A stretch of 64,000 bases of DNA from Acetobacter thailandicus (GTDB lineage: Bacteria; Pseudomonadota; Alphaproteobacteria; Acetobacterales; Acetobacteraceae). Both the position numbers and the translations under genes were made by a program. Shown here piece after piece: positions 26,021-59,712 of the stretch; within the stretch, counting starts at the first letter, position 1, and each line of letters begins with the position of its first letter. The stretch covers positions 124,001 to 188,000 of the forward strand of contig NZ_WOSV01000001.1 of assembly GCF_011516655.1 (NCBI RefSeq), written 5' to 3'. A model generated the notes under the pieces. That model saw only the letters and a program-made list of their open reading frames with translations, did not search any database and was not told where the DNA came from.

Positions 26021-28057
26021 ATGATATTCAGAGTGCAGTTATCTTCTTACCTTAAGAAACTATCATGGGTATTTTTTGGACATCTTTCATCGACGGTCAG
26101 AAAAGAACGGAACTGCGCAATGTTACCTAAGGCCGATTTATTTCCGGATCCTAATCTACCTATCATCGAAACCCTTAATGATCATGCAGACAGCGACACT
26201 CCTCGTGACTATTCTTTGCTTGTAGATGGTCCATGGGGCACTGGTAAAACGTATTTAATCAAGAAATTTATAGAAGGACGAGGAGCAAAAGAGGAAGATC
26301 GACCTCTATATATATCTCTTTACGGCATAAAGGACGTAGAAGAGCTTGATTCTGAAATATTAACAAGTTTATATCCGCGCCTAAATGGAAAAGGTGCCCG
26401 TCTAGCAAGTTTTGTTGGGAAAACTCTTCTGAAAAATGTTCGTATTGATCTTGATGATTTTAAGAAAGGGCTGACGGCAGGCGGCGGTGGTATCGAAATT
26501 GGTGGGTTTAAATTACTAGAAACTAGCCCGAAAGGGCGTATCATTATTTTTGATGATCTTGAGCGTTGCGCAATTCCACCAGGTGTTCTTTTGGGGCATA
26601 TCCATCAGCTGATTGACGATGGTAAGAACCGGGTTATTCTGGTGGCAAATGAGACTGAAATCGCTCAAGATGACAGTGCGGCTCTCAGTGAATACAAGAA
26701 AGCAAAAGAAAAGACCGTTGGTTTTTCATTGACATTGCAAAGCGACTTCAATGGAGCGTTTTCTGCCTTTGTTTCGGAAATGTCTGATCCGACATACAGA
26801 TTGTTTTTAGATGATGCAAAATTAAGGATTGCAGAACTTCCGGTTCATACCTCGGAGATTAACCTTCGCGTTTTGAAGCGTGCAATTACAGCATTCGAGA
26901 TATTGTTCTCCTATATAGATGAAAATTTAAAGAAAAAAAAATATTGGTTAGGAATTCAAGATATATTTCTAAATGTCTATATGGCATTTATTTTAACGAG
27001 AGAAGATCACGTGTCGATTGAAGTTTTAAATAACGAGGCTCTTCAAAAGGAGCGGCGCTATACCTATTTTTCTTCGCGACGCCATGAATCTACAATAGCC
27101 ACCCCGCTTAGTGATGCGATGAGGCAGGTGCGCGAAAGGTATACATTTGACTTCCTGAAAGCGTCCGCTATCTCGTTCCCAGTTTTGCATGACCTCGTAT
27201 GTCATAATCACGTTAATCCGGAAGCCCTGAATGCTGATCTTTCCAAGCATTCCTCTTTCAATCCACCAATATCGTGGCCTGCATGGCGGAAACTGTATAC
27301 ATACTGGGACTTGGCACCAGATGAATTTGTAAGTGCCCTGAATTCTTTCAAGGAGGATTTTATCAAACGCGTTTATGTAAGCATCGATGATATTCTTCAC
27401 TCATTTAGCGTCTATCTGCAAATGAAAGAAAGTATGCCAGAGAAGTTTCCTTTAGATGATAAAATGTCGCAATTTACCTCCTATGTGGATGATGTGATAA
27501 GAAGCAAGTCGGAGTTATTGGACTGCTCAATTGACTCTAACGGCGATAATGAAAATCGTTCATCGTCAATACTTGGCTACCAAAGTGAAGGACACGGACA
27601 ATTTTCAGATGAATTCGCACAGGCGAAGGAGATGTTGATCCATAAAATTCGTGAAGGGAAAGTCTCACGAATTGCAAAAAATGCTGAAGATTTTTTTGAT
27701 AAGACCAAAGATAACCCTGACCTATTTGATGAGTTGCTTGTCAGTAACGCGTCTCGTAAGGCACCCTACGCCAGGATTCCGATTTTGGCCGAAATTGATT
27801 ATAAGCTCTTTTCTCGTCACCTAGTCGACTTGGATCCTGTTACACGAAAGCGTTTTCTTGCTACATTATTCAATCGACATGATCTTACTCGCAATCTCAA
27901 CGATGAACAAATACGGAAAGAAAAATCTTGGTTAGATCGTGTAAGAACGGAAATGATAGATTTATTTGGAAAAGAATCAATACAAATTTTAAAAGACTCC
28001 TATATCGATACTGTTAAGAAATATATTAATCCATGTATTCCAGAAATGAATGAGTGA
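26021..28057 (+). CDS. KAP-like P-loop NTPase (candidate anti-phage protein)
   Basis: 678 residues. DGPWGTGKTYLI (Walker A, residues 69-80) and GRIIIFDDLERC (Walker B, 172-183) define a STAND/KAP-like P-loop ATPase; the DDLER form is typical of KAP and related domains. The remaining 480 residues are helical and have no recognised effector domain or membrane segments. AAGGAAAG eight bases before ATG 26021 supports that start, though an in-frame ATG at 26120 would begin closer to the domain. It stands alone between IS debris and a structured repeat, in a replaceable cargo position. The AT-rich codon use suggests acquisition. Confidence 0.72.
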   Translation: MIFRVQLSSYLKKLSWVFFGHLSSTVRKERNCAMLPKADLFPDPNLPIIETLNDHADSDTPRDYSLLVDGPWGTGKTYLIKKFIEGRGAKEEDRPLYISLYGIKDVEELDSEILTSLYPRLNGKGARLASFVGKTLLKNVRIDLDDFKKGLTAGGGGIEIGGFKLLETSPKGRIIIFDDLERCAIPPGVLLGHIHQLIDDGKNRVILVANETEIAQDDSAALSEYKKAKEKTVGFSLTLQSDFNGAFSAFVSEMSDPTYRLFLDDAKLRIAELPVHTSEINLRVLKRAITAFEILFSYIDENLKKKKYWLGIQDIFLNVYMAFILTREDHVSIEVLNNEALQKERRYTYFSSRRHESTIATPLSDAMRQVRERYTFDFLKASAISFPVLHDLVCHNHVNPEALNADLSKHSSFNPPISWPAWRKLYTYWDLAPDEFVSALNSFKEDFIKRVYVSIDDILHSFSVYLQMKESMPEKFPLDDKMSQFTSYVDDVIRSKSELLDCSIDSNGDNENRSSSILGYQSEGHGQFSDEFAQAKEMLIHKIREGKVSRIAKNAEDFFDKTKDNPDLFDELLVSNASRKAPYARIPILAEIDYKLFSRHLVDLDPVTRKRFLATLFNRHDLTRNLNDEQIRKEKSWLDRVRTEMIDLFGKESIQILKDSYIDTVKKYINPCIPEMNE

Positions 28058-28370: not shown

Positions 28371-30500
28371 TCAGGCTTGAATAGCAGATTGTTCAGGTAA
28401 TCTATTTTCTAAAATATATGGACCTCCTGCATGGATATCTATTGCCATCAAAGCAATACTACCCATCGGGCGCTGGCCCAGCTTTAGAAGAGCATTACCC
28501 TTTGTCCAGCGCACTGTCTCGCCTTCTATATTATTCCACCCTGATAGTTCAGGATCCTGCAAGTGATCTGTCAGCGTAATAGTTGTATCTCCTTCACAGA
28601 GCATCACGCTACCTACAAGAACACCAAGTTTCCTGCGATCATCGACAAACGGACCAATAACATCACAGGGGCGACTGGCATGAGAAACAAGTCGAACACT
28701 CTCAATACCAGCAGGTATCATAAACATTACCCGGCCATCGCTCTCACGGATCTGACGTATCGTTGCGCCAGTTTCCGTAACAAGATAGAGGTTATGGTCA
28801 TGCACTAAAGGCTGAACGATGGTCTGTACATCACGCCCCTTTTGTTCAGCACGACTTTTAATCTGACAGAAAATTAGTTCAACATCATCGCGTGAGACAG
28901 TCAAAGGAGCTGCCGCGTCATTCCAGCTCAAAGTGCGAGATCGTGAAAATGAAACGACATTTCCTGTCTGTGTAAATGTATGACGGTTACCGGTATCGAG
29001 GTAGCTTTCTGTAAGCATACCATCTGCCATAATGACTGAGTGCTCTTCAGTTTCGATGTGATAATACTTATAAGCATTAATGGAGGTATCATAAAAAATA
29101 GAACTACCATTTACGAGCATTCTTGCCGGAACAAATTTGCCATCAAAAAATAAACAATGTTCAGCTGTAATCAGAAGGTCTTTGAATGGCACTCCATCTG
29201 CAATAGAATCCTTAAGGATGCGAATAGGGTAGCCCGCCTGATCCAAAGGAAGATGTGGGCGTATTACACAATGTCCCTCTCCTGCCCACGTCACATGACG
29301 ATTTTTTTCAACACCATCAACATAAGCAATCACTTGATCACCAACTGACAACTCCTCAACCGGAACCAGTCCTGATGGTGTAGTAATCAAGCTGCCAGCC
29401 AGAAAACATGCTTCTGATGATTCAAATGTTGCTGTCTTATAAACAGTAAGAGCTTCATTGACGACTGTTGGGTTTGATATATAGCCACCGCTACCAACTA
29501 ATACGTAACTTGTATTATCCCCACCAGCGAATTTACTACCATTTAGCGTTCCAGACGTGTAGCCACCGCTATATGACTCTGTAAAAACATCATCTGTTGA
29601 TGATCCGCCAGAATATATAGTAGTAACCTCAGATTCATACGAGTTGCTTAAAGATGACCCGCCGGAATATATATTCAAATAACCATTTGCTGTATATGAT
29701 GATTCTATAGTTCCACCAGATGATACGTATATAGTACCATTTGCAGCTCCAAATGTAGCTACAGATACCAGGCCAGATACAACAGCTCCGCTACTTATTG
29801 TCAGGCTTGCATTCCATAAATTAACCGGACCAGAAACAACTTTCGTACCACTAACGTATACAGTTTGCCCTGCATTATTAAGCTTTGCTACCCAGGTTCC
29901 TCCTGATATTACATTGTTGTTATTTGTGATATCAGGTGGCGTTGTTTTGCTAACAGCATTATTATAAACTGCGCTAGAAGCAAGAGTAAATTGTTGATTT
30001 GAAATGGATGGATATGATATATAACCACCGTTCAAAACATTTACATAACTTGTATTATCCCCACCAGCGAATTTACTACCATTTAGCGTTCCAGATGTGT
30101 AACCACCGTCATATGACTCTGTAAAAACATCATCTGTTGATGATCCACCAGAATATACAGTAGTAACCTCAGATTCATACGAGTTGCTTAAAGATGACCC
30201 TCCAGAATAAATATTTAAAGGTCCATTAGCAACATACGATGATTCTATAGTTCCTCCCGACAATACAGTGAGAGTACCATTCCCAAGCCCAAATGTAGCT
30301 ACAGATACCAGGCCAGATACAACAGCTCCACTACTTATTGTCAGGCTTGCATTCCATAAATTAACCGGACCAGAAACAACTTTCGTACCACTAACGTATA
30401 CAGTTTGCCCTGCATTATTAAGCTTTGCTACCCAGGTTCCTCCTGATATTACATTGTTGTTATTTGTGATATCAGGTGGTGTTGTTTTACTTTCGCTCAT
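28371..30500 (-). CDS. Hint-domain protein with duplicated repeat region
   Basis: 709 residues. Residues 4-363 are two 180-residue units rich in Gly, Ser, Thr and Asn (NVISGGTWVAKLNNAGQTVYVSGT...), resembling the beta-solenoid repeats of AIDA-type adhesins. The Hint domain begins at Cys365 (ACFLAGSLITTPSGLVPVEELSVGD) and includes the conserved ITAEHCLFF; Hint proteins cleave themselves at that cysteine. A family-specific C-terminal extension follows. It has no evident signal peptide. It is convergent with the KAP gene and divergent from the late operon, and has a paralogue at 58006. Function on the phage or host surface is unproven. Confidence 0.85.
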   Translation of the reverse strand: MSESKTTPPDITNNNNVISGGTWVAKLNNAGQTVYVSGTKVVSGPVNLWNASLTISSGAVVSGLVSVATFGLGNGTLTVLSGGTIESSYVANGPLNIYSGGSSLSNSYESEVTTVYSGGSSTDDVFTESYDGGYTSGTLNGSKFAGGDNTSYVNVLNGGYISYPSISNQQFTLASSAVYNNAVSKTTPPDITNNNNVISGGTWVAKLNNAGQTVYVSGTKVVSGPVNLWNASLTISSGAVVSGLVSVATFGAANGTIYVSSGGTIESSYTANGYLNIYSGGSSLSNSYESEVTTIYSGGSSTDDVFTESYSGGYTSGTLNGSKFAGGDNTSYVLVGSGGYISNPTVVNEALTVYKTATFESSEACFLAGSLITTPSGLVPVEELSVGDQVIAYVDGVEKNRHVTWAGEGHCVIRPHLPLDQAGYPIRILKDSIADGVPFKDLLITAEHCLFFDGKFVPARMLVNGSSIFYDTSINAYKYYHIETEEHSVIMADGMLTESYLDTGNRHTFTQTGNVVSFSRSRTLSWNDAAAPLTVSRDDVELIFCQIKSRAEQKGRDVQTIVQPLVHDHNLYLVTETGATIRQIRESDGRVMFMIPAGIESVRLVSHASRPCDVIGPFVDDRRKLGVLVGSVMLCEGDTTITLTDHLQDPELSGWNNIEGETVRWTKGNALLKLGQRPMGSIALMAIDIHAGGPYILENRLPEQSAIQA
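29412..30491 (-). repeat. Tandem 540-bp duplication within the Hint gene
   Basis: Units 30491-29952 and 29951-29412 are nearly identical at the DNA level (for example 30361-30420 equals 29821-29880 exactly). Differences cluster in the segments coding residues 68-96 and 150-180 of each unit, a mosaic pattern expected from partial gene conversion. Confidence 0.92.
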
Positions 30501-40470: not shown

Positions 40471-41055
40471 ATGACAGAGAACTCTCCGGCCAGTGGGGGT
40501 ATGCTACAGACAGCAACCCTGAACGCAGCTGAAGATGTAAATCTCGACCTGTTGCTCGGAGACTGGATTTCTCAGCTGACCGGTTTACCCCGCAACTTAT
40601 GCCGGCGACGCTGGCAGGAAAGTCCGCCGGTACAACCTGCCAGAGACACAGACTGGTGTGCACTTGGTGTAACTACCGTTATGCCAGATCAGAACATTGC
40701 GGCAACTTTTAAAGATAATGTTTATACTCTGCACCTGCACGAAACCATTGAAGCATTATTTTCATTTTATGGGATCAACGCTTCACAAAATGCCATGTCT
40801 TTACGTGTTGGTCTGAATGTCAGCGTCAATCGTACATTTCTCACAAATAACGGCATGACTTTTCTTCGGTCATCAGACGTTCGTCGCGTGCCAGCAATTA
40901 TCAATCAGCTCACCCTGATGCGCTCTGATATTTCCATGCAGTTTCGACGGCAGGAACAGCGCACTTACCCTATTCAATCCGTTCTGGTTTCAGACGGATA
41001 CATCACCACAACTGATGGTTTTAACTGTAAATTTTCAACGGAGTATGCCGAATGA
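40471..41055 (+). CDS. Phage neck terminator-like protein
   Basis: About 194 residues. LLGDWISQLTGLPRNLCRRRWQ... is the typical start of the neck terminator family found just before DUF3383 sheath genes. A TTG at 40459 would overlap the previous stop and is an alternative start. The stop overlaps the sheath start. Confidence 0.72.
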   Translation: MTENSPASGGMLQTATLNAAEDVNLDLLLGDWISQLTGLPRNLCRRRWQESPPVQPARDTDWCALGVTTVMPDQNIAATFKDNVYTLHLHETIEALFSFYGINASQNAMSLRVGLNVSVNRTFLTNNGMTFLRSSDVRRVPAIINQLTLMRSDISMQFRRQEQRTYPIQSVLVSDGYITTTDGFNCKFSTEYAE

Positions 41056-42173
41056 CGGCTGGCCTGCCCTTATCTGATATTGTGAATGCTCAGGTCACGC
41101 TTGACCCACAGGCGTCTGCAACACGAAATTTTGGAACTCTGCTGATCGTTGGCTCCGAGAGTGTTTTATCTGACACTGAAGATCTGCGTTCATATTCCTC
41201 GCTTGATAGTGTTGGCGATGATTACGCAGTCACATCGCCAGTCTACCTTGCCGCCACACTGTTTTATGCACAGTCACCGCAACCTTCGACACTCTATGTC
41301 GGTGAGCAAAGAACGTCAGAGACTAATCTGACGACAACGGTACAACGTCTGGCCGCAGCATCCGGAGACTGGTACGGTCTGGCTTTTGCTATGGCAACGA
41401 TGCCGACAGATACAGTTATTGTTCAGGTTGCTCAGCAGATTGAAGCACTGACACCGGTTCGCACATTCTGGGCTACGACACAGGATGCCAATGCCATCGT
41501 ATCATCCGGCACAACTGATCTGGCTTACCTTCTTTGTCAGGCAAATGTCAGCAGAACCTGGTGTCAGTATTCGACATCAAATCCATATGCATCAATCTCT
41601 GCTTTTGCGCGCATTGCCACTGTCAATTACAGCGGTCAGAACACAACTCTCACGCTGAAATTTAAAAACGAACCTGACGTCACAAGCGAAACTCTGACCA
41701 CTACTGAGTATTCTGCGCTCAAAGCAAAATACTGCAATGTGTTTGCCCTGCTCCAGAATGGGGAGAGTATTATCCATGAAGGCTATATGGCCGACGGAAC
41801 ATGGGCTGATACGCGTATCGGCTGTGATGCTTTCCAGAATGGCCTTCAGGTTGCTGGGTTTAATCTTCTGTATTCAAATCTGAAAATTCCTCAGACTGAT
41901 GCAGGCATGGTGATCCTCAAAGGAACATACGACACCGTATGTCAGACCTACGTCACTAATGGTCTGTTTGCTCCTGGTGTGTGGACAGGTCCCACTATTG
42001 GCGCTCTGAAAAACGGCGATACTCTCAACGACGGCTATTATATTTACTGCCCTTCTGTTGCTTCTCAGTCTGCTGCTGACAGATCAGCCCGAAAGGCCGT
42101 AACCATGCAGATTGCCTGCAAACTGGCTGGAGCTGTCCATTCCTCTAACGTCCTGGTAAACGTGGTGCAGTAA
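41052..42173 (+). CDS. Tail sheath protein (DUF3383 family)
   Basis: 373 residues. The start LPLSDIVNAQVTLDPQASATRNFGTLLIVGS and the end SVASQSAADRSARKAVTMQIACKLAGAVHSSNVLVNVVQ match DUF3383, the contractile sheath of a group of small myophages. This is the main evidence that the phage has a contractile tail. Confidence 0.9.
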   Translation: MTAGLPLSDIVNAQVTLDPQASATRNFGTLLIVGSESVLSDTEDLRSYSSLDSVGDDYAVTSPVYLAATLFYAQSPQPSTLYVGEQRTSETNLTTTVQRLAAASGDWYGLAFAMATMPTDTVIVQVAQQIEALTPVRTFWATTQDANAIVSSGTTDLAYLLCQANVSRTWCQYSTSNPYASISAFARIATVNYSGQNTTLTLKFKNEPDVTSETLTTTEYSALKAKYCNVFALLQNGESIIHEGYMADGTWADTRIGCDAFQNGLQVAGFNLLYSNLKIPQTDAGMVILKGTYDTVCQTYVTNGLFAPGVWTGPTIGALKNGDTLNDGYYIYCPSVASQSAADRSARKAVTMQIACKLAGAVHSSNVLVNVVQ

Positions 42174-42625
42174 TGACAACAGGCGCGACATACAGCTTTC
42201 TTGATGTTTCCTGCTCTCTTGTAGGGCCGGGCATCGCAACAACACTCGGCAATGAAGCAGGATCCGCAGAAGAAGGTATTTCTATCGAGCTTCAGGCCGA
42301 TAAAAATACAATGACCACGGGCGCTGACGGAGGCTATATGCACTCCCTTCATGCTGCTAATGCAGGCACGGTTACTGTTCGTTTACTAAAAACATCACCT
42401 CAGAACCAAATTCTGATGGCCGCCTATAACGCTCAGAGAATTAGTTCGAGCCTCTGGGGGAAAAATGTCATCACGCTTATCCAGTCCAACGCCGATGATG
42501 CGATTGTCTGCACCGGGTGTGCTTTTGTGCGTCAGCCCAACCTGGAATATGCGACTGACGGCGGCACTAACACCTGGACATTCCACTCCGGGAAAATTAC
42601 CGGATTGCTTGGAGCATACAGCTAA
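42173..42625 (+). CDS. Tail tube protein (DUF3277 family)
   Basis: 150 residues. ATYSFLDVSCSLVGPGIATTLG and EEGISIELQADKNTMTTGADG match DUF3277 tube proteins, always next to DUF3383 sheaths. It overlaps the sheath and chaperone genes by one base each. Confidence 0.88.
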   Translation: MTTGATYSFLDVSCSLVGPGIATTLGNEAGSAEEGISIELQADKNTMTTGADGGYMHSLHAANAGTVTVRLLKTSPQNQILMAAYNAQRISSSLWGKNVITLIQSNADDAIVCTGCAFVRQPNLEYATDGGTNTWTFHSGKITGLLGAYS

Positions 42626-43044
42626 TGGAAGAAGTCGAAATTAACGGCCGTAAATACACCGTCAAAAAACTTCCCGCTATGCAGCAGTTTCATGTCGCTC
42701 GACGCCTTGCGCCCATTCTGGCAGCTTTTGTAGCAGGTATCCCATCAGGTGGTGAGATAACAGACTCACTCGCCGGGTTTGATCTGGCAAAAATCGGTGA
42801 AGAAATTGCAGCTTTGCCTGATAAAGACGCGGAATACATCCTTAATACAGCACTAAGCGCAGTAACCTATCGCGATGAAGAAGCACAGCGAGATTACTCC
42901 ATTCAGGTTCGCCCTGGTGTGATGCGCTACAACTGGATTGAGCTTCCCGAAATGCTCCGCCTGACGGTCTCTGTGATTCAGCATAATCTTACGGGTTTTA
43001 TTCCCGCCGCGGCCTCAGATTCGAAAGACAAGGCCCCGGCGTAA
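42625..43044 (+). CDS. Tail assembly chaperone, short form
   Basis: 139 residues. EEVEINGRKYTVKKLPAMQQFHVARRLAPILAAFVAG is typical of tail assembly chaperones. It stops at 43042-43044, but a second frame beginning before this stop continues to 43229, so two products are expected. Chaperones coat the tape measure during tail assembly. Confidence 0.86.
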   Translation: MEEVEINGRKYTVKKLPAMQQFHVARRLAPILAAFVAGIPSGGEITDSLAGFDLAKIGEEIAALPDKDAEYILNTALSAVTYRDEEAQRDYSIQVRPGVMRYNWIELPEMLRLTVSVIQHNLTGFIPAAASDSKDKAPA

Positions 43045-43229
43045 CCTTTGAAGTTATTCTTCTACCTGATGACCTCGATTATATGATGCGACCCGTTATT
43101 GCCGGAATGTGCAAAATGGAAAGCCTCAAAGATGGCGCTCTTGATCTGGAAGACGTCGCGTTAATGAATGACGCACTCGATGCAAAAACAGAAAATGAAA
43201 TAAGGTCGAACGCGGCCAGGAAAGAATAA
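42625..43229 (+). CDS. Tail assembly chaperone, -1 frameshift long form
   Basis: The -1 frame is open from 42987 to the TAA at 43227-43229 and has no start codon before 43083. A slip at GGGTTTT would join 125 residues of the short form to 76 more, giving about 201 residues ending LEDVALMNDALDAKTENEIRSNAARKE. The added part (VTFEVILLPDDLDYMMRPVIAGMCKMESL) resembles the DUF6889-type domain seen in such phages. The tape measure follows at once. Confidence 0.8.
42993..42999 (+). promoter_or_regulatory. -1 programmed frameshift heptamer
   Basis: G GGT TTT fits the X XXY YYZ rule exactly in the chaperone frame. The -1 frame has its last upstream stop at 42984-42986, just ahead of the site. Confidence 0.78.
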
Positions 43230-45031
43230 TGGCAGACGCAGGCGTTATTAAAGAGTTTCTGGTTGGCCTTGGTTTTAAGATTAACCAGAAAGGCCAGCGC
43301 GACTTTAAAGAGGCCCTTGATGGCGCTCAAAAAGCTGCCCTTGGCCTGATCGCTGGGTTGAGCGCTGTTGTCGCAGCCGTTGGCAAGGTAGCCCAGTCAT
43401 ATGAACAACTGGGGTATGCCTCAGAGCGCGCTCAGTCTTCAGTCTCTGGTATGCAAAGGTTTGCCTTCGCCATTTCACAGGTTGGAGGTAATGCTGATTC
43501 CGCACGAGCCAGCCTGCAGTCGATTGGTAACTTTCTGCGCTCTACTCCGGGCGGAGAAGGCTTTATTCAGCGGCTTGGTGTGCAGACACGAGATGCGCAC
43601 GGTCATCTGCGTGATACAGCTGCGATCATGTCGGATATGGGATCACACTTCAGGACGATGCCATACTGGCGCGCCCGGGCGTCTGCCGGGGTTCTGGGTA
43701 TAGACGAAAACACTCTTCAGGCCATGATGAGAGGTGGTCAGGGTCATTGGCAGAACAGATACGCTGAGATTTATCGTCGCCTTGGCGTTGACCAGAATAA
43801 AGCAGCAAAAGCCTCACACCATTTTATGCAGGAACTGCGTGATCTCGGTGTCGTATTCCAGGCTGTCAGAGATAAAGTCGCTATCACTCTGATGCCCGTG
43901 CTGGAGCGATTTCGTGACTTCTGCTTTCATATGTATGACAGCTTCACTCATCTAAGCACGGCAACAAAAATATGGGTCTTCGCGATAGGGAGCGCTGTTG
44001 TTGCCTGGCGCTTGCTTAATACCGCATTTATGCAGTCTCCTGTTGGCCGGGTTCTCGCGCTCGGAGCTGCGCTTCTTGCTCTTTACGACGACTATAAGAG
44101 CTGGCAGTCGGGTGCGAAATCTCTGATCAACTGGAAAGAGTGGCAACCTGGTATTGATGCCCTGCAGGACGGGGTAAAGCAGGTAGGCATACTTCTCAAA
44201 GAGTTATGGCCTGATGTTGAGCCTGCACTTGCCCCTATGGGCAACTTCTTCAGGAATATTCTTGTTGATAGCCTTAAAGCTACAGGACATGCCATTTCAG
44301 GAATTGCAAAAGCACTTGATAATATTGCTCATGGACGGTTCAGAGCGGCCTGGGGAAATATTATGGATATGACACAGGAAGGTGTGGGCAACCTGAAAAA
44401 TATTGGCCAATCCGGAGCAGGTCTCTTATCTTCTGGAATAGGTGCTCTTTCCGGAATGGATGCCGGGAAAGTCAATACCGCCATGCAATATCTGACTGAC
44501 CAGGGCATAGACAGGGAGCATGCTTTGGCAATGATCGGAAACTGGCAGCAGGAAAGCGGACTGTTAAATCCAGAACGGACTGATAAAGGTCATTTTGGTC
44601 TGGAACAATGGGAACCCTACAGGCGGGATACTATCCTGAAAAACCTTGGTATTGATGTAAAGAAAGCGGGTTTTTTAGACCAGATGAGGGCCGCAGTATG
44701 GGAATTACGTAATGGACCAGAGTCCAAAAACTGGGATGGTTTCCTTAAAACATCAGGAATGTCTGATGCGGCAGCTTTTTTTGCTAAAAACATAGAACGT
44801 TCTGGAGAAAAACCGGGAGACCCAGGATTTGATTCCAGAATTGCATATGCGGCAAAAGCTGCCTCAATCAGCAACTTTAATACTCTGGCCGGCTCTCACG
44901 CTCCAACAATTAACCAAACGGTTAACATCACCAGTAATGGTAATCCCGCTGCTATAGCCAGCGCTGTGCATGGCGCGACCACACATGCGTTAAACACAGC
45001 AGTTCGGAATATGAAAGCCAGAAGGCAATAA
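43229..45031 (+). CDS. Tail tape measure protein with lysozyme-like domain
   Basis: 600 residues. The N-terminal half is helical with Ala-rich segments and a hydrophobic stretch (KIWVFAIGSAVVAWRLL about 265-285; VGRVLALGAALLALYDD). Residues about 415-560 (MQYLTDQGIDREHALAMIGNWQQESGL...DKGHFGLEQWEPYRRD) match the phage tail lysozyme domain, which opens the peptidoglycan during injection. It starts at the ATG overlapping the chaperone stop. It is short for a tape measure, predicting a short tail of roughly 90 nm at most. Confidence 0.87.
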   Translation: MADAGVIKEFLVGLGFKINQKGQRDFKEALDGAQKAALGLIAGLSAVVAAVGKVAQSYEQLGYASERAQSSVSGMQRFAFAISQVGGNADSARASLQSIGNFLRSTPGGEGFIQRLGVQTRDAHGHLRDTAAIMSDMGSHFRTMPYWRARASAGVLGIDENTLQAMMRGGQGHWQNRYAEIYRRLGVDQNKAAKASHHFMQELRDLGVVFQAVRDKVAITLMPVLERFRDFCFHMYDSFTHLSTATKIWVFAIGSAVVAWRLLNTAFMQSPVGRVLALGAALLALYDDYKSWQSGAKSLINWKEWQPGIDALQDGVKQVGILLKELWPDVEPALAPMGNFFRNILVDSLKATGHAISGIAKALDNIAHGRFRAAWGNIMDMTQEGVGNLKNIGQSGAGLLSSGIGALSGMDAGKVNTAMQYLTDQGIDREHALAMIGNWQQESGLLNPERTDKGHFGLEQWEPYRRDTILKNLGIDVKKAGFLDQMRAAVWELRNGPESKNWDGFLKTSGMSDAAAFFAKNIERSGEKPGDPGFDSRIAYAAKAASISNFNTLAGSHAPTINQTVNITSNGNPAAIASAVHGATTHALNTAVRNMKARRQ

Positions 45032-45673
45032 ATGGTCGTATCTGATATTGCATCTCTGCTGTTCGACAGTAACCGGAAGATAACCGGCCAGGATGGCACC
45101 ACCGTCATTCCTGACCTTGCTATCCGGGAGCGTCACATCGACAGACTTGGCATCACCTCAATGCCAGTACAGACCGGAGCAGCAATAACAGACCATGCTT
45201 TCTATATGCAGCCCGAGTTTACACTCGAGTTTGGCTGGTCAAATGCCACTCTTGCCGCCACATTATCAAACTTTTCAGGCACTACTCTTTCTGGCCTGGT
45301 CAGCGGCGACTTCGGTGAGCAGTATATCAGGACCGTATATGCAAAAATCCTGAAACTACAAAAATCCCGGCAGCTCTGCACTGTAGTAACAGGAAAACGA
45401 ACATACAAAAATGTTCTGATAGAAAGCGTCGAGACAAACAGCAGTTCAGAAACAGCTTATTCAATGTTTGCAGTGATGAATTGCAGGTCACTAAACCTTG
45501 CTCATAGTGCTGTCACTCAATCAGGGATAACAGCAATAAACCAAAAAATACCCGCAAGCACATCCCCTGAAGCAAGTAATGGCACAAAACAGTTGCAGCC
45601 TGCCAGCAACAGCTCCGGGCTGGCCAGTATGTGGAGCGGCGTTAAGTCAGCTTTTTCGAGTGCATTTTCATGA
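45032..45673 (+). CDS. Baseplate protein, Dit-like N-terminal domain
   Basis: 213 residues. SDIASLLFDSNRKITGQDGTTVIPDLAIRERHIDRLGITSMPVQTGAAITDHAF and the KLQKSRQLCTVVTGKRTYKNVLIESV segment fit Dit-like proteins that link the tail tube to the baseplate. It overlaps the next gene by four bases. Confidence 0.76.
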   Translation: MVVSDIASLLFDSNRKITGQDGTTVIPDLAIRERHIDRLGITSMPVQTGAAITDHAFYMQPEFTLEFGWSNATLAATLSNFSGTTLSGLVSGDFGEQYIRTVYAKILKLQKSRQLCTVVTGKRTYKNVLIESVETNSSSETAYSMFAVMNCRSLNLAHSAVTQSGITAINQKIPASTSPEASNGTKQLQPASNSSGLASMWSGVKSAFSSAFS

Positions 45674-45990
45674 CAGTTTTCTATGAAGTGCCGCTACAGC
45701 CAACCAATCAGACTGTGAGTGTCTCAATATCAGGCAGCTCATACAGTTTCCGAACATATTATTGTAACGAGGAAAACAGTGGGTGGGTTCTGGATATTTC
45801 AGATAACAGCGGAAATCCTATTATACAGGGAATCCCACTGGTAACAGGAGCCGATCTTTTAGGACAATTCGCATATCTGAACCTTGGTTTTTCCCTGATG
45901 GTTACAACTGACAGTGCTCCGGCCGCCGTTCCGACCTTTGAAAACCTCGGCATTAATGGTCGTCTATACGTGGTAACAAATGACCAGTAA
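45670..45990 (+). CDS. Baseplate plug protein (Pam3 gp18-like)
   Basis: 106 residues, beta-rich. NQTVSVSISGSSYSFRTYYCNEENSGWVLDISDNSGNPIIQGIPLVTGADLL is typical of the small plug family placed between Dit-like and hub proteins. Overlaps both neighbours. Confidence 0.75.
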   Translation: MTVFYEVPLQPTNQTVSVSISGSSYSFRTYYCNEENSGWVLDISDNSGNPIIQGIPLVTGADLLGQFAYLNLGFSLMVTTDSAPAAVPTFENLGINGRLYVVTNDQ

Positions 45991-46957
45991 ATTCCTGCGT
46001 GTCTGCACAATGGTTCTTTCTGATAATTCAGGTAACAAACTCACATTATCAGACTTTCGAATAGTATTTCGTGTAACACACGGGATCATGCAGACACCAC
46101 GGCACTTAGAAGCCAGAATTTATAACCCGAATGCGGCCACAATAAACCGTATTAAATCAAAATACTCTGTCGTTGAATTATCTGTGGGGTATGGCTCTGA
46201 TGACGATGCCAGTCTTCTGTTTCAGGGTATGATCTGGCAAACCCGGGACGGTCGGGAAAATCCGACTGATACTTTCATTGATATCATTGCTGCCACGCGA
46301 GACACTGCTTTCACCACAGGCACAATCTCAACTGTTCTTGCTGCTGGTTATAAATACAGTCACGTTCAGAATGTAGTCGCTCAGAACATGGCTTCTGACA
46401 ATATTGCTGCTGGCGCATTTCCTGATATCCCCGGATCTGCAGCTCGACCTAAAGTAATGTATGGCATGACCCGGGATCATTGCCGGACCCTCGCGCACAG
46501 TACTGCAAGTATGTACTTCATGGATGAGGATAGCCTGAACTATGTCGCGATTGCAGATACATCCCGCGTCAGGACAACGCAAACTGTCATCGAGCTAAGC
46601 CCTGAGACCGGCCTTATTGGCATCCCGGTTCAGACCCCTGATGGAATTGATGTTACCTGCCTGCTTGATCCTGCCATTAAAGTGAATTCACGCATCCGTC
46701 TGATAAATGCCGCGGTTCTGGATCAGATCGCTGATCTGTCTTATTCGCCGTCTGATGTTGCGAATGCACAATACAGCTCGGATGGCAGCAGGGCCCATAT
46801 ATCAGGTGTCAATGCAACCGGCGATTATCGTGTGGTATGGGCAGATCACTATGGAGATACCTACGGCAATGACTGGTTTTCATCCCTGAAATGTATCTCA
46901 ATTGACCCCTCAGACACTGTGCAGTCACGCTCTGCGCTGGAGGTAACACCAGAATGA
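45980..46957 (+). CDS. Baseplate hub protein (Mu gp44/phage D-like)
   Basis: 325 residues. FRIVFRVTHGIMQTPRHLEARIYNPNAATINRI and DTFIDIIAATRDTAF fit the hub family that sits on the end of the tail tube. The spike gene overlaps its end. Confidence 0.8.
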   Translation: MTSKFLRVCTMVLSDNSGNKLTLSDFRIVFRVTHGIMQTPRHLEARIYNPNAATINRIKSKYSVVELSVGYGSDDDASLLFQGMIWQTRDGRENPTDTFIDIIAATRDTAFTTGTISTVLAAGYKYSHVQNVVAQNMASDNIAAGAFPDIPGSAARPKVMYGMTRDHCRTLAHSTASMYFMDEDSLNYVAIADTSRVRTTQTVIELSPETGLIGIPVQTPDGIDVTCLLDPAIKVNSRIRLINAAVLDQIADLSYSPSDVANAQYSSDGSRAHISGVNATGDYRVVWADHYGDTYGNDWFSSLKCISIDPSDTVQSRSALEVTPE

Positions 46958-47640
46958 GCACGATTGATATTCGTGAACGCTACAATGACCACCAGGAAAA
47001 TACACGAGTAGCAGAAGATGCTCTGCAATCACGCATCTGGACGATGCTGCCAGGAGTGATTGTGTCATTTACTGCTGCTGATGGTGCGCCGATTGCATCT
47101 GTTAAACTGGCAGTTAAAGGCTATGACAGCGCAAATGACGGGTCACGCTCGTTTCATGACCTGCCAACCTTGCCTCATTGTCCGGTTGTGTTCCCACGCG
47201 GTGGTGGCTGCTCCCTCACATTCCCGGTTAATGCTGGTGATGAATGCATGGTACTATTTTCCAGCCGCTCCATAGATGAATGGTGGCAGTCAGGCATAGG
47301 GCAACCTCCTTTCGATTACCGCCAGCATGATCTGTCTGACGGACTTTGCTTTGTCGGGCTGACCAGTAAAGCGCGCCCTCTGGCAAATATCAGCACAGCA
47401 GCTGCTCAGCTCCGTTCTGACGACGGAACTACACTGATCGAGTTAAATGCCAGTTCAAAAGAGGTACGCATTGTTGCAACAGGAGGAATTACGCTGGATG
47501 GACCGGTTAACATAACCGGTGCAGTTACCACCGAAAGCACCATAACGGCACAGGGCGATGTAAAAGCTGGAAGTATCAGTCTCACAAGCCACGAACACCC
47601 GGTCACAGAGGCTCCGGGTACAACGGGGACGCCTCAGTAA
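46954..47640 (+). CDS. Baseplate spike / Gp138 N-terminal domain protein
   Basis: 228 residues. An OB-like region (MLPGVIVSFTAADGAPIASVKLAVKGYD, PVVFPRGGGCSLTFPVNAGDECMVLFSSRSID) belongs to the Gp138/gp45 spike family, and the C-terminus has repeated beta units (TLDGPVNITGAVTTESTITAQGDVKAGSISLTSHEH) as in a trimeric needle. The next normal gene, gp46-like, is separated by an inserted gene. Confidence 0.85.
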   Translation: MSTIDIRERYNDHQENTRVAEDALQSRIWTMLPGVIVSFTAADGAPIASVKLAVKGYDSANDGSRSFHDLPTLPHCPVVFPRGGGCSLTFPVNAGDECMVLFSSRSIDEWWQSGIGQPPFDYRQHDLSDGLCFVGLTSKARPLANISTAAAQLRSDDGTTLIELNASSKEVRIVATGGITLDGPVNITGAVTTESTITAQGDVKAGSISLTSHEHPVTEAPGTTGTPQ

Positions 47641-47946
47641 CTGAAAAAATATCCGGTCGGCAGTAAATTCTTATTTATAAAAATTCAACTACCGAAACAG
47701 CCCAAGAAGAACACATTTTTGTAAGGTTAATAATAAGAATAAATAATATTTAAATAAATACAATCTAATTCATATGAAAAAAATATACCCAAATTTTCAA
47801 CAAATACTAACTCTATTTTAACACTAAAAACAAAAACTTGAGTGATATACGGATTTTTAGCGTGCGATACTTAATTGATGGAAATATTGTTCGGTCATTT
47901 TTGTTTTTGCTAGCTATCAACTAATATTTAACTGGAAACTCAACTC
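47641..47946. other. AT-rich region upstream of the inserted peptide gene
   Basis: About 306 bases, much richer in A and T than the flanking late genes, with no coding frame. It should hold a separate promoter for the gene at 47947. Abrupt change in composition marks the left edge of an insertion. Confidence 0.55.
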
Positions 47947-48459
47947 ATGGATATAATGGCAAAGCTCTCTGCCCACCCCCAGTCCGGGCTGGTCAATCAG
48001 CAAATGCTCACTGTTCGCCTGAGCCTGGAAGCAGCACAGCACGATAATACCGTACGCGAGAAACTGCTTGAAAATCCCGGAGCCTATCTCGCCTCCGCGG
48101 GTTATCCGCTCAGCCCGGATATGATCCCTGATTTTAACCGTTTTATCCATAATGACACCAGTATTCCTGCAATATTAGGTCAACTTCAGAGCGGAGAAGG
48201 TCTTACCAACCTGGAAGGCATTCGTTGCACAATCTGCAAGGTCGCAGCATACGGCATCGCAGCTGCTCTGGTTGCCCTCGGAGCTGCTGGCCTCACGACT
48301 CTTTCAGTAAGTTCAGGCATAGTAATAGCTTTAGCAGCTTTTGCAGGAGTATCCGCTACAAGCGCTCTGGCGTTCATTGCTGGTCTTGCTTCGGTTATTA
48401 GTGGAGGCGTCAGTACAGTGTCCGGGTATATCTGCTCCTGGACGGGAGCTTGCTCCTGA
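47947..48459 (+). CDS. Bacteriocin-precursor-like peptide inserted in the baseplate cluster
   Basis: 170 residues in two parts. Residues 1-88 are a hydrophilic leader: NTVREKLLENPGAYLASAGYPLSPDMIPDFNRF recalls the 'LL.NP.A.LA..G..L' leader pattern of some modified-peptide precursors. Residues 89-170 are a Gly/Ala-rich hydrophobic core with three possible membrane helices and cysteines at 94, 97, 163 and 169 (CTIC and CSWTGAC). It could be a bacteriocin, a lysogenic-conversion peptide or a membrane effector. No modification or export genes adjoin it. SD is weak (TGGAAA). Confidence 0.6.
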   Translation: MDIMAKLSAHPQSGLVNQQMLTVRLSLEAAQHDNTVREKLLENPGAYLASAGYPLSPDMIPDFNRFIHNDTSIPAILGQLQSGEGLTNLEGIRCTICKVAAYGIAAALVALGAAGLTTLSVSSGIVIALAAFAGVSATSALAFIAGLASVISGGVSTVSGYICSWTGACS

Positions 48460-48504
48460 ACACGGTGCCTACTGAGATTTTGAACTAAATATTGCATTGT
48501 GATT

Positions 48505-48548
48505 CACAGGGTGTCGAGTGACGATAACCCTGTGCATTGCATTTTTTA
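48505..48548 (+). terminator. Terminator after the inserted peptide gene
   Basis: CACAGGGT pairs with ACCCTGTG around a 14-base loop, then CATTGCATTTTTT. It lies 45 bases past the stop. Confidence 0.65.
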
Positions 48549-48659
48549 CTACCTGCGAGAAAATTCCTGAATCCTCGTAAAATACAAAACTTAATCATCA
48601 TAAAAATTCTTTAATAATCTAATAATTTTTTATTTTACATCATAAAATTAAAAACAGGA

Positions 48660-48684
48660 AAGCGGCCTTCGGGTCGCTTTTTTT
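48660..48684 (+). terminator. Strong terminator before the gp46-like gene
   Basis: AAGCGGCC-TTCG-GGTCGCTT followed by a T run. The UUCG-type tetraloop is very stable. It sits 18 bases before a structural gene. Confidence 0.85.
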
Positions 48685-48701
48685 ATGACCAGAGGCCAGA
48701 T

Positions 48702-49052
48702 ATGCGCATCAGACTTATGGATAATGATGGGGATATGACCTTCGGGCAATCCCTTGCTAATTTTACGACAGATACGCCTGCCGGGGTTGCGCAGCTGATC
48801 GGAACACGCCTGAGACTGTGGTCAGGAGAGTTTTTTGCCGACACTTCGGATGGCATGCCCTGGGCCAGTGATGTGCTCGGAAACCGCACAACCTCTGTTT
48901 ACAACGCAGCAATACAGGCACGAATTGCAAATACAGAGGGTGTTTCATCTATCACCAGTTACTCCAGCACGCTCAACAACAGAAAACTTACCGTTAGTGC
49001 TGAGGTTCAAACGAACTATGGCATTACAACAATTATATTCGGAGAGTCCTGA
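48702..49052 (+). CDS. Baseplate wedge protein (Mu gp46/GpW-gp25-like)
   Basis: 116 residues. Starts MRIRLMDNDGDMTFGQSLANF and ends in a beta segment (RKLTVSAEVQTNYGITTIIFGES). It fits the gp46 family. AGAGG lies six bases upstream. It overlaps the gpJ-like gene by one base. Confidence 0.82.
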   Translation: MRIRLMDNDGDMTFGQSLANFTTDTPAGVAQLIGTRLRLWSGEFFADTSDGMPWASDVLGNRTTSVYNAAIQARIANTEGVSSITSYSSTLNNRKLTVSAEVQTNYGITTIIFGES

Positions 49053-54616: not shown

Positions 54617-55894
54617 ATGAGCAATATTGACAATTCAGTATGGAGTCTCCGTTCATCGGAGACTCAAATCTGCATACAGTATCCATCCACTCAGATGCGT
54701 GTTGTTGTGGACGGTGACTGGCCAACGGATTTGAGTGATACACGCACACCCTCCCGCGTGACATGCGCTGTGATGTGTGGCAGCACTACTCTGTTTACAG
54801 CGCAAGCAGATTTGAGTTTTCAGGGTCATTTTTCTGTGCTTAATGAAAACAAAAAATCTCTGAAATTTGTGTGGTATAATTACACCACAGGCGATGATCT
54901 TACAGTAAAAGTCGGGCCATGGCTGGCTTCTCAGAAAGTCGATATGAAGGCCTACGGCAATGCGCCGGGTTATGAAATGGACAGAACTTTAATCCGTGAC
55001 GTTCTGTGCAATAAAATTTACAATGCTATTTGTGAAGAACGAACATGGCCCGGACCATTAAAAGCACCCGAGTATGTCTATACAAAAACCATGACGGACA
55101 ATTCAGGTTTCCCGTCTGGTGCACTGTTCGGATGTGACGGTTTCCCGTGTGAAATCTGGCAGGGAGATACGTTTAAAGGGCTGTTTGTATGGCGCACTAC
55201 TGCTCCTGCAAAAGACTTTTTAGTCGATAAGTCAACAGGAGATGATTATCTAGTTCAGGCAAACTATGGCGATGATACATTCTGGACGACTTACAATGAG
55301 AGTTTTCTAAAAATATCAGCTCCGAAAACAAAAAAATACAAAGCTGAATATCTTACTACTCTTATTGATTATACCGCTGGATGTATTGCAGGAACATCAT
55401 CATGGGATGATTTATCAAATTATGCTGACGTTCAGAGTTGGCTTGATTATCTGATACATTGCGAGCTGACGTATAACAAAGACGGAATGGTAAATAATCT
55501 GTATCTGGCATCGTGGGATAAAACGCACTGGTATCTTTATCCTTATGATATGGACGAGACACTCGGCGTGTATCCATGGTCCAGCACTAAAAATGTTGCC
55601 CCAGATCAGATGGGTTTCGCTACAGATGAATATACTATGTGGAAGAATTTGCGCACAGGACTCGATGGTAAAATTCAGAAACGATGGGCTGAATTACGTT
55701 CATCAGAGGTAATTTCTCCAGCATCTATTTTCGCTCTGGTTAAATCCCTGACAGATTTAATGGACGTATCAGCATATCAACAGGATGTGGAGCTATGGGG
55801 AACAAACTCCATTTCTTCAATCCCGTGGATATTGTGGTGGCTGAATGGCCGCATTGCGTGGCTCGATGAACAATGGAGCTATAGCGCGTCATAA
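54617..55894 (+). CDS. CotH-kinase-like protein in the tail fibre cluster
   Basis: 425 residues. KSLKFVWYN (Lys83), a conserved DRTLIRDVLCNKIYN helix, GLFVWRTTAP, and the kinase-like core NKDGMVNNLYLASWDKTHWYLYPYDMDETLG (residues 287-317) are the pattern of CotH, whose Asp-containing 'D-x-D' binds metal and ATP. CotH of Bacillus phosphorylates serines in spore coat proteins. Here it follows the fibre genes; possible targets are the Ser/Thr-rich fibres or a host surface molecule. No signal peptide is seen, in keeping with a virion or cytosolic protein. This is inference. Confidence 0.78.
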   Translation: MSNIDNSVWSLRSSETQICIQYPSTQMRVVVDGDWPTDLSDTRTPSRVTCAVMCGSTTLFTAQADLSFQGHFSVLNENKKSLKFVWYNYTTGDDLTVKVGPWLASQKVDMKAYGNAPGYEMDRTLIRDVLCNKIYNAICEERTWPGPLKAPEYVYTKTMTDNSGFPSGALFGCDGFPCEIWQGDTFKGLFVWRTTAPAKDFLVDKSTGDDYLVQANYGDDTFWTTYNESFLKISAPKTKKYKAEYLTTLIDYTAGCIAGTSSWDDLSNYADVQSWLDYLIHCELTYNKDGMVNNLYLASWDKTHWYLYPYDMDETLGVYPWSSTKNVAPDQMGFATDEYTMWKNLRTGLDGKIQKRWAELRSSEVISPASIFALVKSLTDLMDVSAYQQDVELWGTNSISSIPWILWWLNGRIAWLDEQWSYSAS

Positions 55895-55954: not shown

Positions 55955-56416
55955 ATGACGGAAGAACAGAGCGGGGGTTCTGCCCCTGCATCTGACGAGG
56001 ATCTGCGCCAGATTGTCAGAGACCATACGCAGGATATTGCACAGCTCAGACAGGATGTTGGCGAGATAAAACTAAGCCAGAACAACCTGCGCGACGAGGT
56101 TATCGCTATGCGTGCTGAAGGCAAGCAGTGGCGCGTTAACAGCGACCAGAAAACCGAGAGCCTGCAAACCTCGATAGATAAACTCACACGGGAAATGGCC
56201 GTGCGAAACGGCGTCGAGCAGGAGAGAAACCGCCAGTCTCAGGAAAGAACACAGGCTCTGCGCCGTCTGTCTCTGTTCTTTGGGATGCTGTGCGCCATTC
56301 TCGGGCTGATCAGCACGACACTTTTTTCCTCTCAGACATTCGACACAGCGTTCTGGGGGCATTTTCACCTGCACCCCCGAACTGAAAGCCACACACATGC
56401 AAAACCAGATAACTGA
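55955..56416 (+). CDS. Coiled-coil membrane protein of the lysis cassette
   Basis: 153 residues. A long charged coiled coil (about 18-100: DLRQIVRDHTQDIAQLRQDVGEIKLSQNNLRDEVIAMRAEG...) is followed by one hydrophobic helix (LFFGMLCAILGLISTTLF, about 107-125) and a short polar tail. The layout suits a holin-associated or spanin-like membrane protein. It overlaps the endolysin gene by 20 bases. Confidence 0.6.
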   Translation: MTEEQSGGSAPASDEDLRQIVRDHTQDIAQLRQDVGEIKLSQNNLRDEVIAMRAEGKQWRVNSDQKTESLQTSIDKLTREMAVRNGVEQERNRQSQERTQALRRLSLFFGMLCAILGLISTTLFSSQTFDTAFWGHFHLHPRTESHTHAKPDN

Positions 56417-56834
56417 CCCTGTGCAGGCTGTTGCCCGCACAGCCTGGGGAGAAGCGCGCGGAGAAGGTGTGCGCGGGATGCGTGCTGTGATGAACGTTAT
56501 CGCTAACCGTGCCGCAACTCCCTGCTGGTGGGGGCGCGATTACCTCACAGTCTGCCTCAAAGCCTGGCAGTTTTCCTGCTGGAATGAGAACGACCCCAAC
56601 CGCCCGAAACTGCTCTCTGTGACCGGCACAGATCCGCAGTTCAGAGATGCTCTCGATCTGGCGGCACAACTCATATCCCGAAAACTGCCGGATATCACGC
56701 AGGGATCGGACCACTATTTTGACACTCGCACCAAAACACCGGCGTGGGCCGATAGCAATGCGTATCGCTGCACGATTGGCCACCATGCGTTTTATCGCCT
56801 GGGGCCTTACGGTCAGGAAAAAAACAATGGCTGA
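56397..56834 (+). CDS. SleB-like cell wall hydrolase (endolysin)
   Basis: 145 residues. VARTAWGEARGEGVRGMRAVMNVIANRA is the SleB/hydrolase_2 signature with the catalytic Glu in the WGEARGEG segment. It cleaves peptidoglycan at the end of the lytic cycle. It has no signal peptide, so it depends on a holin. It overlaps the next gene by eight bases. Confidence 0.88.
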   Translation: MQNQITDPVQAVARTAWGEARGEGVRGMRAVMNVIANRAATPCWWGRDYLTVCLKAWQFSCWNENDPNRPKLLSVTGTDPQFRDALDLAAQLISRKLPDITQGSDHYFDTRTKTPAWADSNAYRCTIGHHAFYRLGPYGQEKNNG

Positions 56835-57860: not shown

Positions 57861-58005
57861 AACTGACAGTGTAATTTAAAAAATCATTTATCCCAGTTAA
57901 CTTTATTACACATAAAAATTTGACAAAATATACTTTTCTTTAATTTTAAATGGCAACGAGTTAGGTGCTATTTAACAGATCTGACATCCACAAGAGGAGG
58001 TGAAA

Positions 58006-59712
58006 ATGCCTATAATCGTCGCCGGGGTTGGAGGATCAACAACCTATCCGGATGATACAGATCTAGCATCAATCGCAAATATTCAAGCTGCAACATCAGT
58101 AACCGTTACTGGCTCAGGAACCGTAGTTAATACTGAAGCCCTGGCAGCACTCTCAGCCCTCAAAACATTAACAGTAACCGACGGGGCTACTATTGTTGAT
58201 AATGGCGGTCTGGCAAGCATATCAACTTTAAGTAAAATTGAAATAAATGGCGGAACTTATGAAGACACAGGAGGAGCAATCAATGTAAACCTTCTAAGTG
58301 ATATAGTAATAGGGCCCACGGGAGGCGTTTTAAAAATAGATGCACCGTCACTTGTAGGTGTATCACTAACCACTCCAATTTCTTATGTAGATAGTAGCGG
58401 CAATACTACAAGTACACCCCCTAAAAACTTCGTACTTGATCTTCCATACCTTACATTTAAAGACCTTATTGGAACAACACATTATATTCCAATTGATGTA
58501 ACATACAATGGAACGACAACTGTAGTACAGGATAATACTGGACTTGTTACTCAACTATTAAGCTCTCTTGGAATTAGCTTAGTAACCCGTACAATTACAC
58601 TTGAAGGCAACCCTTTCGACTTAACAAGCGGACAAACAAAAGAATATACCGGAAGCACTTCCAGTTCTGATGCTATTATTTGCTTCTTAAGTGGCTCTAT
58701 GATTGATACTCCATCAGGTCTGGTTGCCGTTGAGGACTTATCAGTTGGAGACCTCATAAATGTATATGAAAATAATAAACCTCATATACGTTCCGTAAAA
58801 TGGTCAGGGTATGCACACTGCGCTGTAAAACCAGAAAAGCCTGATGATATGGCTGGTTATCCGGTGCGAATTCTGAAAGATGCCATTTCCCCTGGTGTAC
58901 CGTTTAAAGACATGCTGATTACTGCAGAGCACTGCCTGTTTTTTAACGGTACTTTTATACCGGCACGTATGCTGGTGAATGGCCGTTCGGTTTTTTATGA
59001 TAAATCCATCACTTCTTACACTTATTATCATATTGAAACAGAATCTCACTCGGTGATCATGGCTGATGGCATGCTAACCGAAAGCTATCTGGACACAGGA
59101 AATCGCAGAACTTTCCAGCAGAAAAGCAGTGTTTTCATCTTCAACGAAAATACAAAAAGCTGGGAGAACGATGCTGCCGCTCCTCTGGATGTATCACGCG
59201 AACGGGTAGAACCCATTTACCGCCAGATTGCACAACGTGCAGATAAGATGCTCCTGCCCATTCAAAGCAATCTTCAAATATTAACTTCTGAAAGCAACCT
59301 GCATCTTCGTTCAGCTGCCGGACACGTTATTAAGCCGCTCCGTAATATTGAAAATCATACCCTTTTTATGATTCCTGGCAATATTAACACAGTTCAGATT
59401 GTCTCAAACAGCAGCAGACCGTCTGATACACAAGGTCCATTTGTCGATGACAGGCGTAATTTGGGCGTGCTTATAGGTAAAATCTTTTTTTCCGAGGGCA
59501 ATACAAAAAGAGAAATCACACATCACCTGATCGACGAAGATCTTGAAGGCTGGCATAGCCTGAGCCACCCATCCTTACGCTGGACAAACGGCTGTGCTTA
59601 TCTACATCTGGGGCCACGCGAACCCGGGAGTATTGGCCTGCTGTCAGTCAGCATTGAAGCTGCCGGCCCTTACTGCATAACGCATGAAGAACTCAACCTG
59701 GCAACAGCATAG
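58006..59712 (+). CDS. Second Hint-domain protein
   Basis: 568 residues from ATG 58006 with AGAGGAGG five bases upstream. The first 220 residues are Thr/Ser/Gly-rich beta repeats unlike those of the gene at 28371. From CFLSGSMIDTPSGLVAVEDLSVGD onward it is closely similar to that protein, including ITAEHCLFF, ARMLVNG, YYHIETESHSVIMADGMLTESYLDTGNRR and FVDDRRNLGVLIG. The cysteine nucleophile and histidine of the Hint fold are kept. It is set apart from the lysis genes by an AT-rich gap and ends in a strong terminator. Confidence 0.86.
   Translation: MPIIVAGVGGSTTYPDDTDLASIANIQAATSVTVTGSGTVVNTEALAALSALKTLTVTDGATIVDNGGLASISTLSKIEINGGTYEDTGGAINVNLLSDIVIGPTGGVLKIDAPSLVGVSLTTPISYVDSSGNTTSTPPKNFVLDLPYLTFKDLIGTTHYIPIDVTYNGTTTVVQDNTGLVTQLLSSLGISLVTRTITLEGNPFDLTSGQTKEYTGSTSSSDAIICFLSGSMIDTPSGLVAVEDLSVGDLINVYENNKPHIRSVKWSGYAHCAVKPEKPDDMAGYPVRILKDAISPGVPFKDMLITAEHCLFFNGTFIPARMLVNGRSVFYDKSITSYTYYHIETESHSVIMADGMLTESYLDTGNRRTFQQKSSVFIFNENTKSWENDAAAPLDVSRERVEPIYRQIAQRADKMLLPIQSNLQILTSESNLHLRSAAGHVIKPLRNIENHTLFMIPGNINTVQIVSNSSRPSDTQGPFVDDRRNLGVLIGKIFFSEGNTKREITHHLIDEDLEGWHSLSHPSLRWTNGCAYLHLGPREPGSIGLLSVSIEAAGPYCITHEELNLATA

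Follow-up and report, generated by a model that had tools for sequence, protein, structure and literature searches.

The window, a stretch of 64,000 nucleotides of the Acetobacter thailandicus genome (contig NZ_WOSV01000001.1, positions 124,001 to 188,000), carries a temperate, contractile-tailed prophage, whose genes include those for an integrase (15197-16273), an S24/HTH repressor (20944-21612) and a cell-wall hydrolase (56397-56834). A tRNA-Val gene (15000-15074) beside the integrase gene is likely to serve as an attachment site; the segment 14951-15250 has no exact repeat of at least 12 bp after position 55000 of the window. A gene for a KAP-family P-loop NTPase (26021-28057, plus strand; PF07693, E 2.4e-15) separates the repressor region from the structural genes, and since KAP NTPases include phage-exclusion proteins, it is a possible cargo gene in addition to the one described below. 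Large repeat-like proteins with a Hint_2 domain (PF13403) are encoded twice, on the opposite strand inside the prophage (28371-30500, minus strand; E 3.2e-32) and near its far end (58000-59712, plus strand; E 6.9e-32), and a CotH kinase-like protein (54617-55894, plus strand; PF08757, E 4.9e-15) is encoded between the tail-fibre-like genes and the lysis region.

The membrane-puncturing spike gene of the prophage (46954-47640, plus strand; PF18352, E 3.6e-32) is separated from the gp46-like baseplate wedge gene (48702-49052, plus strand; PHROG 120, E 1.8e-27), which is followed by a Baseplate_J gene, by an insert of 1,061 bp (47641-48701). The insert consists of an AT-rich non-coding upstream part (47641-47946, 306 bp, 26.5% GC), a plus-strand open reading frame (ORF) of 170 codons (47947-48459, 52.2% GC) and a downstream part of 242 bp (34.3% GC) with two intrinsic terminators on the plus strand; the tail genes at 41052-47640 have 49% GC. 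The ORF, the sole plausible gene within the insert, encodes a protein with a leader-clan-like motif (residues 33-61) and a Cys-bounded hydrophobic C-terminal segment. Shuffling of the whole insert produced an ORF of at least 170 amino acids once in 1000 trials, and shuffling of the ORF segment alone produced ORFs of at least 150 amino acids in 5 of 1000. A sequence-only reading of this DNA had described an AT-rich intervening segment of about 1 kb with one gene and two terminators, a description that length, composition and predicted folding bear out.

Both terminators are identified by sequence and predicted folding. The first (48498-48547) is a stem-loop at 48498-48541 followed by six T residues, with a folding energy of -21.7 kcal/mol (z -4.23; none of 200 shuffles as low), and the second (48656-48683) has the sequence GCGGCC TTCG GGTCGC followed by a T run that is partly paired, in the predicted fold, with As preceding the stem (-15.8 kcal/mol, z -3.87; none of 200 shuffles as low). 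A simple terminator scan had neither of them among its output, and the Rfam matches near the second, all under gathering scores, were disregarded. In the upstream part, the folding of two pieces is unremarkable (z 0.10 and -1.67). A promoter scan of the insert gave two weak plus-strand sites, one of them across the start codon of the ORF, and on both strands together four matches to the promoter consensus were seen against 2.7 expected, all of them weak. Of the separate signals that had been proposed for this gene, the terminators are upheld by their folding and a dedicated promoter is presumed. Because two strong terminators lie within a late operon, expression of the gp46-like gene and those after it should depend on readthrough, antitermination or an additional promoter. 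The AT-rich DNA between the terminators (48550-48690), which has no Rfam match at or above the gathering score, may contain a promoter or a short RNA that ends in the second terminator.

The best 80 of 94 IMG/VR loci with a relative of the spike were examined together with the window copy (81 loci, some of them near-duplicates), and a gp46-like gene was detected downstream of the spike in 65. Among the 64 loci other than the window in which both genes were detected, the gap between them is -20 to +16 bp in 58, in keeping with the earlier statement that the spike gene is normally followed at once by the gp46 gene. The other gaps are 49 bp (two loci), 97 bp (one) and 327, 465 and 3,034 bp (one each); by inspection, the 327-bp gap contains a 97-codon ORF whose product resembles a PAAR protein, one ORF runs through the 465-bp gap, and the 3,034-bp gap contains a fibre-like ORF of 1,012 amino acids. 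The 16 loci without a detected gp46, which were left out of the gap count, comprise four that stop inside the spike, one that is a cut copy of the same prophage, three with 0.4-1.0 kb remaining, and eight with 1.8-3.4 kb of downstream DNA in which no gp46 was found downstream even at E values up to 10. In seven named genomes the gap is 12 bp or less in six and 111 bp in Serratia sp. Ag1.

Some match to the spike is present in 17 of 200 genomes of the family (own genome included). The spike and gp46 genes adjoin directly in L007-L009 and in L050, where the spike is 55% identical, and in L051 (genome G349; spike 44% identical) the same junction is occupied by another insert, roughly 300 bp long (1204-1494). 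That insert forms a predicted hairpin of -31 kcal/mol (z -4.66; 1 of 200 shuffles as low) without a clear T run, and has a 50-codon ORF for a product like a small membrane protein, with no Pfam or NCBIfam match at the limits used. At two loci (L053 and L054) the gp46-like match precedes the spike, so that the order of the two genes varies. Where it can be read, the junction is usually closed, and it occasionally takes other genes. Two marks of a phage moron are present: insertion between genes that adjoin each other in related phages (58 of 64 loci; L007-L009 and L050), and a transcription terminator of its own, here two by sequence and predicted folding.

The location directly after the spike gene, the strong hydrophobicity of the product and the tail-like ORFs seen by inspection at the same junction in two other loci (L258 and L249) might instead point to a virion component, a membrane-active passenger beside the spike that would be delivered at the tail tip. 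This is very unlikely, since terminators of its own and AT-rich flanks distinguish the gene from a co-transcribed tail gene, and most relatives lack it.

Relatives of the 170-residue protein are scarce. A prophage contig (IMGVR_UViG_2858105562_000001) is 99.2% identical to the window over 8,425 bp and ends at window position 48404, inside the ORF, which is intact as far as it can be read (residue 152), with one synonymous and one non-synonymous change. This near-identical copy appears, by sequence comparison, to be the only convincing relative in the databases searched. Among 50,697 phage records there was one match, at E 5; 72,556 plasmids and, with tblastn, the GTDB genome contigs had no homologue. 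A search of 100 genomes (own and 48 congeners included) found, besides the own genome, only a match in G066 (E 0.005) to core residues 96-158, which was discounted as low-complexity. With the N-terminal part alone, 397 genomes of the family (own included) gave, besides the own genome, nine with matches at E 0.011-0.038, which were discounted as chance. The low-complexity filter of BLAST may have hidden matches to the core alone. A similarity to tape-measure proteins (PHROG 15478, E 0.0094) was discounted by judgement for its hydrophobic low complexity.

A scan of viral contigs for the pattern of the core, CK.AA...C...G.C, with the first Cys in its TGC spelling only, listed at least 120 stretches, among which there was no relative. 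These included 11 open frames, nine with negative mean hydrophobicity; the other two were L100 (mean hydrophobicity 0.53, eight charges) and L175 (1.12, four charges), the latter antisense to a frame of 843 residues. The proposed search for the same gene in related prophages has thus yielded one near-identical copy and no other convincing relative among phages, plasmids, GTDB contigs and family genomes. An orphan with one near-identical relative only, and with weak promoter matches, could be a recently arrived ORF that is non-functional or unexpressed; this is unlikely, considering that the ORF is intact over the compared part of the second prophage contig, with the single synonymous and non-synonymous changes noted above, and is followed by two terminators.

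The C-terminal 72 residues of the protein (99-170, following K98) contain no D, E, K or R, are Gly/Ala-rich and hydrophobic, and are predicted to be helical. Cysteines at positions 94 and 97 and at 163 and 169 lie two by two at the ends of this core, which was correctly described in the sequence-only reading as Gly/Ala-rich, hydrophobic and bounded by Cys. A single-sequence AlphaFold model of the core alone has three helices, a short one flanked by two long ones (pLDDT 64, pTM 0.41), and from this model the core may be a helical hairpin. The corresponding full-length model is poor (pLDDT 50) and places the C-terminal part in four helices, unlike the model of the core alone; a Foldseek search against the PDB returned nothing better than E 6.8. 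The hydrophobic, helix-predicted segment would also suit a holin-like membrane protein that serves as a lysis accessory, which is highly improbable: the cell-wall hydrolase lies at 56397-56834, the rest of the lysis cassette is likely to be around it, and the cassette described here is separately terminated.

The N-terminal part resembles leaders of the NHLP clan. Residues 33-61 match NF038399, the model of the Os1348 NHLP-clan RiPP leader, at E 6.8e-4 with the whole protein and E 3.7e-4 with residues 1-95; at 20.5 bits against a curated cut-off of 40 the match falls short of a leader-domain assignment. Residues 28-55 match TIGR03793 (NHLP leader) at E 0.16 (11.8 bits against a cut-off of 50.9). 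In a search with NF038399 at genome scale, the ORF (E 0.0016) is level with several spurious matches. The peptide LLENPGAYLASAGYPL, in which a leader pattern had earlier been perceived, lies within the stretch that matches the NHLP/Os1348 RiPP-leader model, and may fairly be called leader-like.

A clan HMM was built from eight hand-cut segments (L286, L287, L289, L290, L295, L012, L016 and L018); the first five come from a set of ten loci, of which L288 and L291-L294 were left out as implausible frames by inspection, and the other three from a set of eight places, of which L011, L013, L014, L017 and the own L015 were dropped. The N-terminal part scores 15.3, which none of 5000 shuffles reaches (3197 scored; best 5.6), and over the window the ORF ranks first among 216 reported frames (13.5 against 6.8 for the next), a test that is not independent because the same NCBIfam model had served to collect the segments. 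Without the four nitrile hydratase segments the real sequence scores 6.2, reached by 2 of 5000 shuffles (best 12.9), and with a model of those four segments alone it scores 10.5, reached by none of 5000 (best 8.2). L012, L016, L018, L289 and L295 are taken, as named from their sequences, to be members of the nitrile hydratase alpha or LigA type. Since the clan also holds nitrile hydratase alpha and LigA-type proteins, the motif alone does not mean a RiPP. No double-Gly type of cleavage site is evident by inspection in residues 70-93; its absence is not decisive, because PosA and PflA of Pseudomonas also have no typical one.

The core was compared with known bacteriocins. It aligns over all 69 positions of the halocin C8 model TIGR04449, at E 1.7 (9.7 bits, cut-off 24), and a haloarchaeal HMM gives it a score of 12.0, which is matched by 33 of 1000 free shuffles and by 20 of 1000 with Cys fixed. 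At the level of the class, TIGR04449 has matches at E values up to 1 in 33 of 289 genomes, none above the cut-off, and the own genome is not among these 33. Membership in the halocin C8 family was rejected, the resemblance being within the range of shuffles and the score far under the cut-off. Among Pfam and NCBIfam matches of the core at E values up to 10, from a search in which the HMMER filters discard most weak matches, halocin C8 is the only bacteriocin model and there is no circular-bacteriocin family. The host genome has no match to C39 peptidase (PF03412), YcaO (PF02624) or LanC (PF05147), and it has one SPASM protein (PF13186), which looks by its sequence like PqqE; the models searched (C39, YcaO, LanC and SPASM) thus gave neither the modification enzymes nor the C39/NHLM export of an NHLP/Os1348 system.

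The protein could nevertheless be a bacteriocin-like precursor, with an NHLP-like leader and an antimicrobial core, that is released unmodified in the manner of colicins when the prophage lyses some cells, or is processed by the enzymes of another host. Such a reading, the main rival of the conversion gene preferred below, is possible though rather unlikely. It gains from the matches to NF038399 and TIGR03793 over overlapping stretches, from a clan HMM score that no shuffle out of 5000 reached, and from the Gly/Ala-rich hydrophobic core with paired Cys; furthermore, PosA and PflA of Pseudomonas are NHLP-type precursors that have neither a typical double-Gly site nor a protease gene, although modification enzymes are encoded adjacent to them (PMC12636437). 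It loses from leader scores far under both curated cut-offs with no evident double-Gly site, from an insert that has no modification, export or immunity gene, from a host that has no C39, YcaO or LanC match and whose only SPASM protein looks like PqqE, and from family matches of the core that are not above chance. Of the bacteriocin interpretation in the sequence-only reading, then, the leader-like motif and the Cys-bounded core have survived, and membership in a known family of modified or circular bacteriocins has not; a bacteriocin is a possible identity for the 170-residue product.

The more specific proposal of a stand-alone precursor in a baseplate operon, which would combine the leader fold of NHLP and nitrile hydratase alpha with a Cys-clamped, charge-free, pore-forming core and would be released at lysis without dedicated enzymes, is distinctly unlikely. 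If it were true, induced lysogens would kill non-lysogenic neighbours by a peptide as well as by virions.

The tentatively preferred interpretation, to which somewhat less than an even chance is given, is lysogenic conversion: the gene would encode a membrane protein that acts in the lysogen, for example in superinfection exclusion. The cassette would be a moron of one gene, lodged at the spike/gp46 junction of the temperate contractile-tailed prophage, and a signal within the AT-rich upstream part would drive expression of the gene in the lysogen. The helical N-terminal part may keep the hydrophobic part manageable, or may address it; the C-terminal segment would enter the inner membrane, possibly folded into a helical hairpin with its ends joined by the Cys pairs, and the resulting membrane protein would alter the lysogen in a way that benefits it, the exclusion of other phages being the most likely effect. 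Judged from the cassette and the membrane-type segment, phage exclusion would be the likeliest single conversion function among several possible ones.

The moron interpretation is favoured because the junction is closed in 58 of 64 loci and a different insert with a hairpin occupies it in G349 (L051); because the insert has terminators and its product a charge-free hydrophobic segment with predicted helices, in a host with no C39, YcaO or LanC match; and because an integrase, an S24/HTH repressor and the KAP NTPase are present, with the cell-wall hydrolase elsewhere in the prophage. Against a conversion function count the promoter matches, which are weak only, the lack of a homologue of known function, the empty Foldseek result and the poor full-length model; moreover, a RiPP precursor would explain the leader-clan motif no less well than a membrane protein would.

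The spike/gp46 junction, closed in most of the loci in which it could be read, can thus take autonomous cargo, and a RiPP-leader-clan motif is found here joined to a membrane-type segment on a prophage. An antimicrobial product would link phage cargo with precursors of the RiPP type, and an exclusion protein would add an orphan family to a known class. According to a published account (PMC7067206), the expression of moron loci during lysogeny is often high. In cyanobacterial bacteriocin clusters with NHLP members among their precursors, C39 transporters are reported (PMC3140520). No open-access article was found that joins an NHLP leader peptide, nitrile hydratase and a prophage, and no such gene appeared in the excerpts of the matches listed from the open-access literature on prophage RiPP or bacteriocin precursors and on Acetobacter prophages; the excerpted text of a study of ocean RiPPs and phages mentions no phage-borne precursors (PMC11118758).

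Among known systems, the halocin C8-like domain (TIGR04449) shares with the core a CxxCK beginning and a CxxxGxC end, but the core has 4 Cys rather than 10 and does not have the conserved Cys array. Circular bacteriocins are hydrophobic, Gly/Ala-rich, helical and about 75 residues long, as is the hydrophobic, helix-predicted segment of this protein, whereas the Cys pairs and the long N-terminal part set the protein apart, and it matches no family of this type. The alpha subunits of nitrile hydratase and LigA-type proteins have the same helix motif, and the same model matches L012, L016, L018, L289 and L295; the 170-residue protein, however, has neither the CTLCSC metal claw nor the enzyme domain, but CTIC followed by a membrane-type segment. 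With Os1348/PosA and NHLP precursors (NF038399, TIGR03793) it shares the leader-clan motif D..(F/V)R..LL.(D/N)P...L...G in residues 33-61 and, with PosA and PflA, the lack of an evident double-Gly site; it differs in its score of 20.5 bits against 40, in an insert without modification enzymes and in its long hydrophobic C-terminal segment. Phage morons differ from the cassette in that it lies within a baseplate operon, between spike and gp46, with an orphan product and only weak promoter matches, but it resembles them in being a single gene between genes that are adjacent in relatives, with its own terminators, in a temperate prophage.
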